From Methanosarcina sp. MTP4 (GTDB taxonomy: Archaea > Halobacteriota > Methanosarcinia > Methanosarcinales > Methanosarcinaceae): 64,000 nucleotides of DNA. The notes under the pieces are model-generated. The model ran no database searches. It worked only from the letters and a program-made list of their open reading frames with translations, and had not been told where the DNA came from. A program made the translations under genes and the position numbers. Location of the stretch: the NCBI RefSeq assembly GCF_000970045.1, contig NZ_CP009505.1, positions 3,992,808-4,056,807 on the forward strand. Direction: 5' to 3'. Positions within the stretch are counted from its first letter, which is position 1, and every line of letters starts with the position of its first letter. This document shows, piece after piece, positions 31,918 to 39,688 of this stretch.

Positions 31918-33051
31918 ATGCGTATACTTGCAGCGGACATAGGAACGGGAACGCAGGACATCCTGCTTTTCGATTCCGAAAAAGAGATGGAAAACAGCCT
32001 GCTCATGGTCATGCCCTCCCCGACACAGGTCATTGCGGAAAAAGTTATGGAAGCAACGCAAACCGGAAAGGACATAGTATTTACCGGGACCATCATGGGC
32101 GGAGGGCCTTCGGGAAGGGCTGTAAAGGCTCACCTGCAGGCAGGTTTTCTGGTATATGCAACAGAGAGGGCTGCCCTGACGATCCACGACAACCTTGAGA
32201 AAGTGAAAGCTTTCGGGGTCCGGATAGTTTCCGAAGAGGAGGCAAAAGAACTCACCGCCTCCGGGAGTGCTGTAGAAATCGTCATGCGGGATTTTGACCC
32301 TGAAGCGGTCTCGAAAGCCCTGTCAGGCTTTGGGGTTACGGTTCCGGAAAAACTCGCAGTGGCAGTGCAGGACCACGGGAACGCCCCTGATAAAAGTAAC
32401 AGGGTGTACCGCTTTGAACTGTTCAGGGAATTCATCGAGAAGGGAGGGGAACTTGAGTGCTTCGTGTACATGGCAGAGGAAATCCCACCGGCCTTCACCC
32501 GCATGAAAGCCCAGGCTGACTCCCTCTTGAAAACAACCCTGAGAGCAGAGGGTGCCCCGGAAATTAAGGCTGTATTCATGGACACCGGGCCTGCAGCGAT
32601 TTTTGGGGCACTCACGGACCCTGTAGCCAGGCAGCCCTCAATTGTGGTGAACATCGGAAACGGACACACTCTCGGAGCCCTCGTGCTTGAGAACAGGATT
32701 ACTGCCCTCTTCGAACACCACAGTTCCCGCATGAACCCTGAAAAATTGCAGGATTACATAATCAGGCTTGCCGATGGGAGCCTTGGTTTTGACGAGGTCT
32801 TTGAAGATGGGGGGCACGGAGCGTACATAAAGGAAGCCACGGGCTTTTCCAGCGTCCGTTCGGTCGTGGTTACGGGGCCGAAGCGGGGAATGCTCGAAAA
32901 ACTTCCCGAAAAAGAAATCCGGCCTGAGATTCTGGAAAAGCTGCATTTTGCAGCACCTTTCGGGAGCATGATGCTCTCGGGCTGTTTCGGGTTACTTGCA
33001 GGATTTTTTAAGAAATACCCGGAAACATCAATAAAACTTATAAACCCCTAA
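31918..33051 (+). CDS. DUF1786 protein, ASKHA-like
   Basis: 377 residues. The start RILAADIGTGTQDILLFD resembles the phosphate-1 loop of the actin/hexokinase/Hsp70 superfamily, and SIVVNIGNGHTLGALV the phosphate-2 loop, so an ATP-dependent role is possible. DUF1786 members are sometimes labelled 'putative pyruvate formate-lyase activating enzyme', but no radical-SAM motif is present, and I do not support that name. Divergent from moaB. Function unknown. Confidence 0.85.
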   Translation: MRILAADIGTGTQDILLFDSEKEMENSLLMVMPSPTQVIAEKVMEATQTGKDIVFTGTIMGGGPSGRAVKAHLQAGFLVYATERAALTIHDNLEKVKAFGVRIVSEEEAKELTASGSAVEIVMRDFDPEAVSKALSGFGVTVPEKLAVAVQDHGNAPDKSNRVYRFELFREFIEKGGELECFVYMAEEIPPAFTRMKAQADSLLKTTLRAEGAPEIKAVFMDTGPAAIFGALTDPVARQPSIVVNIGNGHTLGALVLENRITALFEHHSSRMNPEKLQDYIIRLADGSLGFDEVFEDGGHGAYIKEATGFSSVRSVVVTGPKRGMLEKLPEKEIRPEILEKLHFAAPFGSMMLSGCFGLLAGFFKKYPETSIKLINP

Positions 33052-34029: not shown

Positions 34030-34638
34030 ATGTATGATTACGAAGAGCTCCTGGACCGTGCGATTGCCAAGTTACCGGATATCGAGACCACCGACGCTCG
34101 ATTCGTAATCCCCGAACCTAGAACCTTTTCCGAAGGTAAAGCCACGATCCTGGACAACTTTGGAAACATTGCCGATATCCTGAACCGGGACCCTGACCAC
34201 CTTATGAAATACCTTACAAGGGAACTGGGAACCGCAGGAAAGATCGAAGGCTCCCGTGCAGTCTTCCAGGGCAGGTTCACAAGGACCCAGCTTGCGGATA
34301 ACATCCAGGCTTACGTGGACGAGTACGTCATGTGCTCGGAATGCGGACGTCCTGACACCCAGCTCGTCCGGGTGGACCGGGTACTCATCCTGAAGTGTTC
34401 CGCATGCGGTGCCCACAGGCCTGTCAAAAAGAGAAAGATTACCCAGACCGAAGTAAGGGAAGCAATCGAGGAAGGGGGAGTCTACGAATTCAGGATCGAT
34501 GCAGTGGGTTCCAAAGGCGACGGGATCGCAAAGGTGGACAGGTACACAATTTTCGTACCCGGTGCCTCAAAAGGCGATGTGGTCAAGGTAAAGATCAAGA
34601 AAATCAGCGGAAACCTCGCCTTCTCCGAGAGGGCTTGA
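34030..34638 (+). CDS. eif2b: Translation initiation factor aIF2-beta fused to a TRAM domain
   Basis: Beta subunit of archaeal aIF2, which brings initiator tRNA to the small ribosomal subunit. 202 residues: N-terminal helix, core domain ([24 protein letters not shown]) and zinc ribbon CSEC...CSAC (about 105-130). An additional ~60-residue C-terminal TRAM domain ([21 protein letters not shown]...VKVKIKKI) probably adds RNA contacts. The family core is about 135-140 residues, so this is a fusion. The ATG follows AAGGAAGTATAAAC. Confidence 0.95.
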
Positions 34639-34793: not shown

Positions 34794-34850
34794 GAGATTG
34801 ATTTTAACGAGATTGATTTTAACGAGATTGATTTTAACGAGATTGATTTC
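34794..34850. repeat. 15-bp tandem repeat
   Basis: Unit GAGATTGATTTTAAC at 34794, 34809, 34824 and (partial) 34839, followed by two copies of TTTCAGATTCTACACAAA (34848-34882), in the 298-nt spacer ahead of the radical-SAM-like gene. Confidence 0.9.
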
Positions 34851-34936
34851 AGATTCTACACAAATTTCAGATTCTACACAAAATATCCGGTAGGAGAAAA
34901 ACACCAGGCCTGCCAGATCAGGATTTGTGATTAAAA

Positions 34937-36190
34937 ATGACTCCTGAGAAAAACAACACAGAGGAAATTAGTGGAGTGGAAATTCCTGCCAATGGAAAAT
35001 CCATTGAAATCCTCTCGGTCCCCGGGCTCCGGGTCAACCTTCAACATGCAAAGAACCCTCTCAGAGGAGATTTCCTGGAACTTACTGCCAGCGGGACCCT
35101 GAAAGCCGCATGTTCCCCTATCCTCAAGAAAATCAACTCCCGCCTGCGAGAGGAAAAGCCCGCTCTTGTCAGGGAAGACCACGTAATCGCCTCAGCCTGG
35201 CTGCCCCCGATTCCTGGCCCTGCGTTCAAAAGGCTGCTCTATGCCGAGATGCAGATCGCTATCGGGAAATACATCCCGGAAACCGTTTCCATCGAGCTGA
35301 CCCGCCAGAACAGTGCAAGGTATTCCCCGGGAACTAATGAGGACGAACTGGATATCGGAACCCTCAAAAGAGTGATCGACGAAGCCCTTGACCTTGGCAC
35401 GTTCATCATCACGTTTACGGAAAACGACCCCCTGCTCAGGGAGGAGGTCTTCGAGCTTATCGAGTACGTGGACAAAAAACGCGCAATCGTGAATAGTTCC
35501 ACCTGGGGAACAGACTTTTCAAAAGAAACCGCCCGCCACCTGAAAGATGCCGGACTCCATGCCCTGATGGTTGGGGTCTACTCCACGGACCCGGCAAAAC
35601 ACGACGCTACCAGGAAAGCCAGTGGGGCGTACGAAAGGGCAGTATCGGCCATCAAAACGGCTCTTGACACCGAACTCATGGTCGCCATGACAACGCACGC
35701 TTCTCCCTCAAACATGCAGGAGCTTCCGGCCCTCTATGCCCTTGCATCGGAACTCGGGGTGCAGGAATTCTCGGTCTGGGAAGCCATGCCAAAAGCCGGA
35801 GAAAATGCAGGAGAAAAACCCCTTGTTTCCGACGAGAACAGGAGAGCCATCCTTGAGATGTACGAGCGGATCAATGCCAGCCCGAAAGGTCCCCGGATGT
35901 TTGCAAACACCTACTTTGAGGGGCAAATGCTGGGTGCCATGGCAGGCAGGCGCTGGATGCATGTCACTGCAGACGGAGATGTAAAGCCGAGTCCGTACCC
36001 TCCATTTAAGTTCGGAAACGTCAAAGAAGAACCTTTGAAAGACATCTGGCAGAGGATCAGGAGCTACCCTTATTTCCAGAGGCAAAAGAACTTAAGCCCC
36101 ATGCACGACCCGGAATTCCTGGAATTTGTTGACAGGATCCCTGCCGGAGCAAAGCTTCCTTATGAGTTTGAAAAAGTTTACAGGCGTTAA
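34937..36190 (+). CDS. Radical-SAM/SPASM-like protein lacking cluster cysteines
   Basis: 417 residues with the layout of a SPASM-type radical-SAM enzyme: an N-terminal presequence, a TIM-barrel-like core (about 115-330) and a C-terminal auxiliary domain (about 340-395). The place where CxxxCxxC should follow IELTR reads QNSARYSPG (124-132), and the SPASM-like stretch DGDVKPSPYPPFKFGN (347-361) has Ser where cysteine is expected. The only cysteine in the protein is C59. It therefore cannot bind the SAM-cleaving 4Fe-4S cluster. The frame is intact, so it is probably a pseudoenzyme or a repurposed fold. Substrate and partners unknown; trpS follows 430 nt later. Confidence 0.8.
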   Translation: MTPEKNNTEEISGVEIPANGKSIEILSVPGLRVNLQHAKNPLRGDFLELTASGTLKAACSPILKKINSRLREEKPALVREDHVIASAWLPPIPGPAFKRLLYAEMQIAIGKYIPETVSIELTRQNSARYSPGTNEDELDIGTLKRVIDEALDLGTFIITFTENDPLLREEVFELIEYVDKKRAIVNSSTWGTDFSKETARHLKDAGLHALMVGVYSTDPAKHDATRKASGAYERAVSAIKTALDTELMVAMTTHASPSNMQELPALYALASELGVQEFSVWEAMPKAGENAGEKPLVSDENRRAILEMYERINASPKGPRMFANTYFEGQMLGAMAGRRWMHVTADGDVKPSPYPPFKFGNVKEEPLKDIWQRIRSYPYFQRQKNLSPMHDPEFLEFVDRIPAGAKLPYEFEKVYRR

Positions 36191-36260
36191 ACGTTTTCGG
36201 GGACTGCCCGACCATCCTTTTTTTAAAAGAGTCTTTGTGCTCCCGATGCCCTCCGACTTT

Positions 36261-36388
36261 ACCGGGTTCATCCGAATTTATCAGAATTTACCGGTTTCAT
36301 CCGAATTTATCAGAATTTACCGGTTTCATCCGAATTTATCAGAATTTACCGGTTTCATCCGAATTTATCAGAATTTACCGGTTTCATA
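36261..36388. repeat. 29-bp tandem repeat, about four copies
   Basis: CCGAATTTATCAGAATTTAC recurs at 36272, 36301, 36330 and 36359 with an exact 29-bp period and almost no divergence. The unit is not a multiple of three, so it is non-coding. It lies in the 432-nt spacer between the radical-SAM-like gene and trpS; nothing else is seen there. Confidence 0.97.
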
Positions 36389-36622
36389 TGGATTTTCCTT
36401 CCTTGAGGCAGGAGCTTCGTTTCCAATGTGTATTCCGGTGCCAGGTTATCCGGAGATAAACATTTACATATGAGCAGGTATTTTTAAAGAGCGTTTCAAT
36501 TGAAACATGAATTTACATCCTAATTGAAATTCAGAAGAAATAAACTAATTAAGATTCAGCAAGAAAAAGCTGGCTGCCCTGAGGCAACTGATTCAGGAAA
36601 CCAGCATCCACTGAGGGACTTT

Positions 36623-37936
36623 ATGGATACGAAACTTGACCCCTGGAGTTCAAACGACATTACTGACTATTCCAAGTTATTCGAAGAATTCGGGATTTCC
36701 CCCTTCGAGACCGTGCTTCCGGAAATCCCTTCCCCGCACATGTATATGCGGAGAAAAGTCATCTTCGGGCACCGCGACTACGAACAGATTGCACAGGCTA
36801 TGCGGACAGGTGCCCCATTTTCGGTCATGGACGGCTTTATGCCCTCGGGCAAGGTCCACCTGGGACACAAGATGGTCATGGACCAGATAGTCTGGCACCA
36901 GGAACAGGGCGCAGATGCCTTTGTCGGGATCGCGGACAGGGAAGCGTATTCCGTGCGCGGTTTTTCCTGGCAGAAGTGCAGGGATATAGGGGTCGAAGAA
37001 TATATCCTGAGCCTGATCGCCCTCGGATTCAAGCCTGACGGCCTTATCTACTTCCAGTCCGGGTGCGAAAGTGTCAAGGACCTGGCATTCGAACTCGGCT
37101 CAAAGGTCAATTTTTCGGAACTGAGCGCTATCTACGGTTTTTCAGGGGAAACAAACCTCTCCCACATGCTCAGCGTGGCAACCCAGGCTGCAGACATCCT
37201 CCAGCCCGAGCTCGAAGAGTTTGGAGGCCCTAAACCCGTGGTCGTACCCGTGGGCCCGGACCAGGACCCCCACCTCAGGCTAACCAGGGGCCTGGCAGGC
37301 AAGATGAACATGTTCAGGATTGAGGAGCGGGAAGACAGTAAGACCGGCAGGCCGTACCTGAGCGTCCGGGGAAAAGCCGCTTCAAAAGAAGCTCTGAAAG
37401 AGCTAAAGAAACGCATCCCTGGAAAGGTTAAACTCTATGAAGCGCACGTTGATGTGCTCGAATTTTCCAACCGGGCAGGGCTTGAGGAAATCGTTCGGAA
37501 CGTAGCCCTGGAATTCGGAGGCTATGCCTTTATACCCCCAGCTTCCACCTACCACCGTTTCATGAGCGGGCTGCAGGGCGGGAAGATGTCGAGCAGCATC
37601 CCGGAGAGTCACATCGCCCTCACGGACGCCCCGAAGGATGGGGCAAAGAAAGTCAAGCGGGCAAAAACCGGCGGCTGCGTAACCCTTGAAGAGCAGAAGA
37701 AACTGGGCGGGAAACCCGACGAGTGCTCGGTCTTCGAACTGATGCTCTTCCACCTGCTCGAAGACGACAAAGAGCTGCTGGAGATCAGGGAAGAATGCCT
37801 CTCAGGGGAGCGGATGTGCGGCTCTTGTAAACAGCTGGCTTCCGAACTCATGCACGACTTCCTCAAAGAGCACCAGGAAAAGCGGGAACTTGCCCGGGAA
37901 CAGCTCGATGAGTACGGGATAATGTACAAAAAATAA
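36623..37936 (+). CDS. trpS: Tryptophanyl-tRNA synthetase
   Basis: Class I synthetase, 437 residues, archaeal/eukaryal type. HIGH-type motif HLGH (79-82, within [10 protein letters not shown]) and KMSSS (321-325). [16 protein letters not shown] marks the tryptophan and ATP pocket. The start is the ATG at 36623 with GAGGGA upstream; an in-frame extension to 36524 lacks a ribosome-binding site. The C-terminal [16 protein letters not shown] region binds the anticodon. It is followed by another synthetase gene, pheS. Confidence 0.97.
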
Positions 37937-38209: not shown

Positions 38210-39688
38210 ATGAGTGCCCAGGACAATCTCACAATCAACGAGAAGAAGGTCTTACTCGCCCTCCAGGAACTCGGGTCCGCTGCTCCCGGGGAACTGGAAG
38301 AAAAATCAGGGCTGCAGGTAGATGCAGCAATGCAGGCGGCCTTCCTGCTCGAGGAAAAGGGACTTGCATCCGTTTCCGAAAAAGTGCTCGAGCGCTATGC
38401 CCTTACCGGGGAAGGAGAGACTTACGTCGAAACCGGGCTTCCGGAACGCCAGATAGTCGACTCCCTCAAAAGCCCGACCCCCCTTGACGAGTTAAAGAGC
38501 CGCTTTTCCCCGAAAATGGTGGGAATCGCAACAGGCTGGCTTGTTAGGAAAGGCTGGGCAAAGATCGAAGAAGGCGTAATGGTCCCTTCAGGGAAAGCCC
38601 CTGCCGGAAAGGACGAAGCCATCCTTGCCGCCTTCGGAGGCGAAGCAAAGACCCTTGAGGAACTTTCAGCCGACGCAAAGGTAGTAAAGGACCTTCTCAA
38701 GAGGAAAATCGTCACAAAGCACGAAGAAAAGTTCCGGACCGTTGCAATCACGGATGCCGGCACTGCCCTTGCGGCAGAAGGCCTTGTCCTGGAAGAGGAA
38801 ATCGCCCAGATCACATCCGACTTACTCAAGAGCGGGGCCTGGAAAGGCAAGAAATTCAGACCTTACAGGCTTGACATAAAACCAAAACCCCTCTACGGGG
38901 CCAAGGTCCACCCCTACCGCCGCCTTATCGAGCAGATGCGGCAGATCTTCCTGGAAATGGGCTTTACCGAGATCAAGGGAGATGTAATCCAGAGCTCCTT
39001 CTGGAACTTCGATGCCCTCTTCCAGCCTCAGGACCACCCCGCCCGGGACATGCAGGACACCTTCCACCTGGGCAGCAAGACCCCACTCCCTTCCGAATAT
39101 GCCGACAAGGTAGGGGAAATGCACGAATGCGGAGGGGACATCGACTCCTGCGGCTGGAAGGGAAAATGGGACAGGGAACTTCCAAAAAAGAACGTGCTCA
39201 GGACCCACACGACCGCAGTCACCATCAAGTACCTGGCAGACAACCCCGAACCTCCCGTGAAAGCCTTCTGCATTGACCGGGCCTACCGCAGGGAGACCAT
39301 CGACCCAACCCATACCCCCGAGTTCGAACAGCTCGAAGGCGTGGTCATGGACAAAGACATGTCCTTTGCCGACCTCCTGGGCCTGCTTGCCGAATTCTAC
39401 CACAGGATGGGCTTCGAAGAAGTCCGCTTCCGCCCCGGCTACTTCCCCTACACCGAACCCAGTGTCGAACCCGAAGTCTACGTGGACGGCCTCGGCTGGG
39501 TGGAACTCGGAGGCGCCGGTGTCTTCAGGAAAGAAGTCACAGAACCCTTCGGGATCAAGGAACCCGTCCTTGCCTGGGGGCTCGGGGTCAGCAGGGTAGC
39601 CATGCTGAAACTGGGACTCAAGGACCTGCGGCTGCTCTACCAGTCCGACCTCGACTGGCTCAGGAAGAGCGAAGTCTGCAGGATCTGA
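38210..39688 (+). CDS. pheS: Phenylalanyl-tRNA synthetase alpha subunit
   Basis: Catalytic subunit of the heterotetrameric PheRS. 492 residues of the archaeal type: N-terminal winged-helix DNA-binding-like domains (about 1-200) and a class II core with [22 protein letters not shown] split over motif 1-2, [28 protein letters not shown], and the motif 3 [18 protein letters not shown]...[13 protein letters not shown]. pheT is not in the adjacent sequence. The ATG at 38210 follows a TATCAGGATGTGATC region. Confidence 0.97.

Follow-up and report, generated by a model that had tools for sequence, protein, structure and literature searches.

A radical-SAM/SPASM homologue devoid of cluster ligands is maintained in Methanosarcina and its small-genome sister genera, with a putative non-catalytic role in methanophenazine synthesis

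The window analyzed here, a stretch of 64,000 nucleotides of the Methanosarcina sp. MTP4 genome, carries a gene, hereafter A, whose product is homologous to SPASM-type radical-SAM enzymes and keeps none of the seven cluster cysteines (Table 1). These ligands are lost clade-wide and the gene is under purifying selection, so that there is good support for considering A as a maintained pseudoenzyme, its lack of catalysis being inferred.

Table 1. Gene A, its remarkable sites and its conserved neighbors (positions within the window)
Feature	Position	Strand	Basis or remark
aIF2-beta/TRAM, conserved upstream neighbor of A	34030..34638	+	NF008993; synteny
Gene A, cluster-free radical-SAM/SPASM homologue, 417 aa	34937..36190	+	ORF; PF04055 and PF13186
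N-terminal family-specific region, about residues 20-110	34994..35266	+	STWxPPxP stretch common to A, B and C
C59, sole Cys of the protein	35111..35113	+	Conserved among A orthologues; outside the cluster sites
Former CX3CX2C site, residues 124-132, QNSARYSPG	35306..35332	+	Alignment; 3-residue deletion, without Cys
GGE-like SAM-methionine motif, residues 161-165, TENDP	35417..35431	+	TEGDP in intact orthologues
SPASM-side ligand positions A334, T344, S352	35936..35992	+	Cys in intact orthologues
Last SPASM-side ligand position, S387	36095..36097	+	Cys in intact orthologues
TrpRS, conserved downstream neighbor of A	36524..37936	+	NF008926, NF003210 (TrpRS/PheS); synteny
PheS, after TrpRS	38210-39688		Synteny

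The Pfam Radical_SAM profile (PF04055) matches residues 132-248 of A with 45 bits for a cut-off of 29.5 (1.7e-11), the match beginning past the site of the missing CX3CX2C motif, and the SPASM profile (PF13186) matches residues 336-381 over its gathering score (1.2e-6). An AlphaFold2 model built on an alignment of 26 orthologues (pLDDT 82, pTM 0.86) predicts that A retains the radical-SAM barrel with a SPASM-like end, its best solved matches being SkfB (6efn, Z 22.3, rmsd 3.7, 282 aligned residues) and then PqqE (6c8v, Z 21.4, rmsd 3.0, 250 aligned residues). By fold, A belongs to the radical-SAM superfamily, on the PF04055 match and the structural matches for a partial TIM barrel; as an enzyme it does not, the CX3CX2C motif being absent in 45/45 orthologues of five genera, and the auxiliary-cluster cysteines of a SPASM domain are equally missing although PF13186 passes its cut-off. 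The former cluster loop (residues 125-132) is modelled with a pLDDT below 50. The model of an intact Methanolobus orthologue, taken as a control (pLDDT 87), has identical top matches (Z 20.7 and 19.7) and a cluster loop that is poorly modelled too, and therefore low confidence in the loop of A is not, on its own, a sign of loss. The radical-SAM core and SPASM-like C-terminal stretch claimed in the preliminary description are thus confirmed by the Pfam matches and the predicted fold, and its proviso that the claim would fall if no radical-SAM barrel were predicted does not apply.

Alignment with the orthologues details the fate of the cluster sites. The radical-SAM loop reads ELTRQ---NSARYSP in A and EITRECKCNCEHCVV in the orthologues, which corresponds to a substitution together with a deletion of three residues, and on the SPASM side A334, T344, S352, and S387 take the place of cysteines. 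The preliminary description had read QNSARYSPG at the CxxxCxxC site, which holds once the shortening of the loop is added, Ser for Cys at the SPASM site, and one cysteine, C59, in the 417 residues, which the ORF translation confirms. The C59 column is the one conserved Cys column kept in most copies of the Methanosarcina clade, and C59 is not a cluster ligand. Considering the 162 columns conserved at ≥85% in intact A orthologues, the Methanosarcina clade has lost 8/9 conserved Cys columns as against 19/153 of the others (Fisher p = 1.8e-6).

In all genomes of genera g1, g2 (which we take to be Methanosarcina-type genera) and g8, the CX3CX2C stretch has given way to a Cys-free stretch with the identical three-residue deletion, an isolated Cys being present within the replaced stretch of the G248 copy, and the SPASM positions are occupied by A, T, S/G, and then S or another small residue. 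A is also cluster-free in the small-genome genera g10 and g11 (1.3-1.8 Mb), presumed by us to be Methanimicrococcus-like. There, the g11 loop keeps its length, RKYNANAARY or RKFNANAERY replacing RECKCNCEHC position by position, hence a substitution without deletion, and in g10 one isolated Cys is left near the former loop. Furthermore, SAM-side positions of A have changed: G163N, which is fixed in the Methanosarcina clade, P190W, and S213G, position 213 aligning with the conserved Ser of the ISLDG strand of AhbD. As g10 and g11 have P190W in common with Methanosarcina but retain G163 and S213, the disarming of A seems, by inference from these alignments, to have been stepwise, with the cysteines and P190W changed first and the deletion, G163N, and S213G arising later in Methanosarcina.

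Searching forty relatives for orthologues, we distinguished three paralogous groups (A, B, and C), which are found both within the family and among ANME-2-like families. A is present in 111/112 genomes of the family, the lone exception being a genome 73% complete. Both cluster sites are missing from it in five sister genera (45/45 genomes), two of them the small-genome genera and the others Methanosarcina-like, the latter being identified as Methanosarcina through named records such as M. spelaei and strains KYL-1, Ant1, and DH2. The cysteines are present in the orthologues of the other genera of the family, of ANME-2, and of Methanothrix-like genomes, with named records from Methanolobus, Methanococcoides, Methanohalophilus, Methanohalobium, Methanosalsum, Methanomethylovorans, and ANME-2. 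In a tree of A computed after removal of the trait columns, all cluster-free rows lie on one side of a branch (95/92), a grouping to be taken with some caution given the long g10 and g11 branches; an independent AlaRS tree, used because the B tree left the small-genome genera unresolved as a species tree, groups the cluster-free genera likewise (98/94). Since they form one clade in both trees, the simplest reading is that the clusters were lost once, on the stem shared by Methanosarcina and its small-genome sister genera. Recent damage or sequencing error is ruled out by the loss across 45 genomes; recent damage, seen in the preliminary description as a possible refutation if close homologues all carried the cysteines, is itself refuted, as close homologues are uniformly cluster-free and the next lineages out keep them.

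The coding sequence of A bears the mark of constraint. No internal stop was reported in any listed copy of A, and the median NG86 dN/dS reaches 0.118 for cluster-free copies of the Methanosarcina clade (115 pairs), 0.089 for intact A (148 pairs), and 0.03-0.09 for B and C, so that cluster-free A stands slightly above its intact orthologues and B/C. Pairs were restricted to dS between 0.05 and 1.2, and NG86 is a crude, approximate estimator; g11 pairs gave 0.09-0.20, several with saturated dS. The absence of internal stops and a dN/dS of about 0.12 indicate that A is maintained rather than decaying, and the earlier claim of a clean frame not explained by simple decay holds. The cluster-free and intact groups have a common residue at ≥90% in 112 columns, including E162, D164, N186, T189, Y215, H222, R226, W281, and E282; the pseudo clade has 213 columns conserved at ≥90% and thus exceeds the intact set in the number of near-invariant columns. 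The only Methanosarcina copy with a differing C-terminal reading, KTWPRCTTP, is L175 (G319:C1:39200-40700), which probably reflects a frameshift in a draft genome. A misassigned frame for A itself is ruled out by the clean frame and the conserved alignment. A second, intact copy was looked for in the genome of the window and not found, B, C, and distant radical-SAM proteins of about 30% identity being the only ones detected.

The order aIF2-beta, A, TrpRS, PheS is kept through most Methanosarcinaceae, with pseudo and intact A alike, and A is situated elsewhere in most ANME-2 and Methanothrix-like genomes. In Methanolobus and relatives, a KaiC-family ATPase gene (PF06745, 4.9e-65; L086:7194-7976) ends 3 bp upstream of A. 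Such a gene is found upstream of A in 0/24 Methanosarcina loci and 23/35 intact loci; loss of a KaiC-like partner as the cause of disarming was rejected, as the 12 other intact loci are also without it. In the window, tandem repeats flank A at 34794-34882 and 36258-36387 (15-bp x3.7, 18-bp x2.1, and 29-bp x4.5). Positions 31918-33051 encode a DUF1786 protein (PF08735, "putative pyruvate format-lyase activating enzyme") with weak similarity to the diol-dehydratase-reactivase ATPase domain, whose gene usually lies upstream of L10e and aIF2-beta at A loci.

The paralogues point to a pathway. B and C accompany A in nearly every searched genome and keep CX3CX2C where A is cluster-free; in a tree of the three groups, A, B, and C form separate clades, apart from AhbD. 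B directly follows a polyprenyl diphosphate synthase gene and precedes genes reading as the A1Ao ATP synthase operon. The synthase matches NCBIfam GFPS_Meth (NF040627) over its full length with 527 bits (cut-off 600) and adjoins B in the same genomes across the family, small-genome genera included; B likewise follows a polyprenyl synthase in Methanothrix-like genomes (f6). Geranylfarnesyl diphosphate (GFPP) synthase (MM_0789) is the only enzyme to which a place in methanophenazine synthesis has been assigned (PMC3017947). One homologue of it, at G013:C36:6148-6987, contains an in-frame TAG. C is grouped with a geranylgeranyl-reductase (GGR) homologue and a UbiA prenyltransferase. The prenyl chain of methanophenazine is partly reduced, and a GGR-like reductase beside C would therefore fit. 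In Methanosarcinaceae, A itself is flanked by aIF2-beta and TrpRS, with no methanophenazine gene next to it.

In the distant lineages f11, f17, and f21, the A orthologue sits in a gene cluster together with further members of the family and homologues of UbiA and GGR. Five such loci (L133, L134, L135, L136, and L142, from genomes of 1-1.6 Mb) each hold several radical-SAM genes of the A/B/C family, with UbiA, geranylgeranyl-reductase, and NMT1/SsuA-like genes; these clusters are candidate loci for the synthesis of an unidentified membrane carrier. The A/B/C family and menaquinone synthesis hardly coincide. Within the order, MqnC passes its cut-off in 7 genomes, exactly the 7 without A/B/C, and in 0/33 others. 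Within a phylum sample of 295 genomes, a strong match to the family (E ≤ 1e-80) is present in 69 and MqnC in 82, G114 alone combining the two, so that, judged by the MqnC profile, genomes with the family are without menaquinone synthesis with one exception in 69. According to a review (PMC5244752), 'Ca. M. nitroreducens' is probably a menaquinone user and ANME-2a likely relies on methanophenazine. This exclusion supports, without proving, a function of A/B/C in the synthesis of a methanophenazine-type carrier. That the set makes or finishes methanophenazine is likely, on an inference resting on gene neighborhood and phyletic pattern only.

A descends from a SPASM-type radical-SAM enzyme and has lost all the [4Fe-4S] and auxiliary-cluster ligands of this ancestor. 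In the mechanism that we consider the most likely, methanophenazine synthesis would rely on a set of three radical-SAM proteins, of which A would be the disarmed one. The chemistry of the family is established, and without cluster ligands A should not cleave SAM. Unable to do so, it would keep its barrel and most pocket residues because it binds an intermediate of the pathway, because it joins B or C in a complex as a non-catalytic subunit, or for both reasons; its former radical step would no longer be needed or would have passed to another protein. The conserved barrel, STWxPPxP region, and pocket positions argue that A still binds a ligand or a partner, the assignment of the nine residues listed above to the pocket being deduced from where they fall on the strands. 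As armed B and C co-occur with A in the same genomes, our best guess is that it serves the same pathway, either as a non-catalytic subunit or as a carrier of an intermediate. Altogether, we lean, by a limited margin, toward A being kept as a non-catalytic partner or intermediate binder in methanophenazine synthesis, the interaction and the ligand both being inferred. Against this reading stand the position of A away from methanophenazine genes in Methanosarcinaceae and its dN/dS, slightly above that of intact orthologues; moreover, G163N, P190W, and S213G may alter or abolish ligand binding, and G163N and S213G lead us to infer that SAM is possibly no longer the ligand. The pseudoenzyme under selection of the preliminary description is well supported; the binding or regulatory partner that it proposed remains an inference, to which a candidate pathway is now added. 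A bolder reading, which we consider possible but less likely than not, makes A the obligate non-catalytic subunit or intermediate carrier of an undescribed B + C radical-SAM methanophenazine synthase; in other methanogens and ANME-2, intact A would then carry out one more radical step, and what it yields is perhaps unlike the Methanosarcina carrier.

Several other explanations have to be weighed. A may have left the pathway for another task, such as one in translation or regulation, which is possible; the conserved gene order with aIF2-beta, TrpRS, and PheS would fit such a task, but the same order in genera with the intact enzyme means that it predates the loss, and the gene lies elsewhere in most ANME-2 and Methanothrix-like genomes. 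It is also possible that A, B, and C are unrelated to methanophenazine and serve another process such as lipid modification. Homologues of UbiA and GGR have a part in archaeal lipid synthesis too, and such families are named among the profile matches; however, the linkage of B to GFPP synthase is family-wide and the exclusion between A/B/C and MqnC is near-perfect.

That A still binds SAM or a metal through non-Cys ligands and is active as a novel type of enzyme, with for example a cluster-free, SAM-dependent reaction, is unlikely. Conservation of pocket residues such as E162, D164, H222, and R226 would favor it, but its cluster loop has lost length and is modelled with low confidence, and the small replacements on the SPASM side constitute no new ligand set. 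Finally, a drifting relic in slow decay since the radical step was lost is very unlikely and disfavored: the slightly raised dN/dS and the altered C terminus of L175 are in its favor, but 45/45 genomes keep the frame without internal stops at a dN/dS of about 0.12, and cluster-free A is the more invariant of the two sets.

With respect to known systems, A shares superfamily and fold with AhbD, NirJ, and PqqE, but lacks their cluster cysteines, and AhbD falls outside the clade that A/B/C form. The NCBIfam scan returned the SPASM enzymes AhbD, NirJ2, TIGR04053, TIGR04347, and PqqE, all far under their cut-offs; membership is not met even for the best match, AhbD heme b synthase (TIGR04545; 108.5 bits, cut-off 500). 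The haloarchaeal pseudo-SAM/SPASM family TIGR04347 (pseudo_SAM_Halo), like A a SPASM-type radical-SAM homologue and named pseudo, is a precedent for the idea but another family (83 bits for A, cut-off 525); intact A and B score above window A on it (98.8 and 109.6), and the resemblance is therefore not due to cluster loss. The intact A proteins of Methanolobus, Methanococcoides, ANME-2, and Methanothrix-like genomes are also close, with about 48-59% identity, the same N-terminal region and, in the family, the same locus; they differ from A by their CX3CX2C and SPASM-side cysteines. The known methanophenazine GFPP synthase (NF040627; MM_0789) is a neighbor of B, and not of A, in Methanosarcinaceae. 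In the open-access literature searched, we found no paper on radical-SAM pseudoenzymes, on the A family, or tying radical-SAM genes to methanophenazine.

Radical-SAM pseudoenzymes are hardly described, and a single NCBIfam model so named was met here. In the case of A, the loss is a single one whose place in the phylogeny is known; intact sisters and, within the very same cell, paralogues that remain armed are at hand for comparison, and the genus lends itself to genetics. Furthermore, A/B/C together with GFPP synthase, UbiA, and the reductase constitute concrete candidate genes for the synthesis of methanophenazine.
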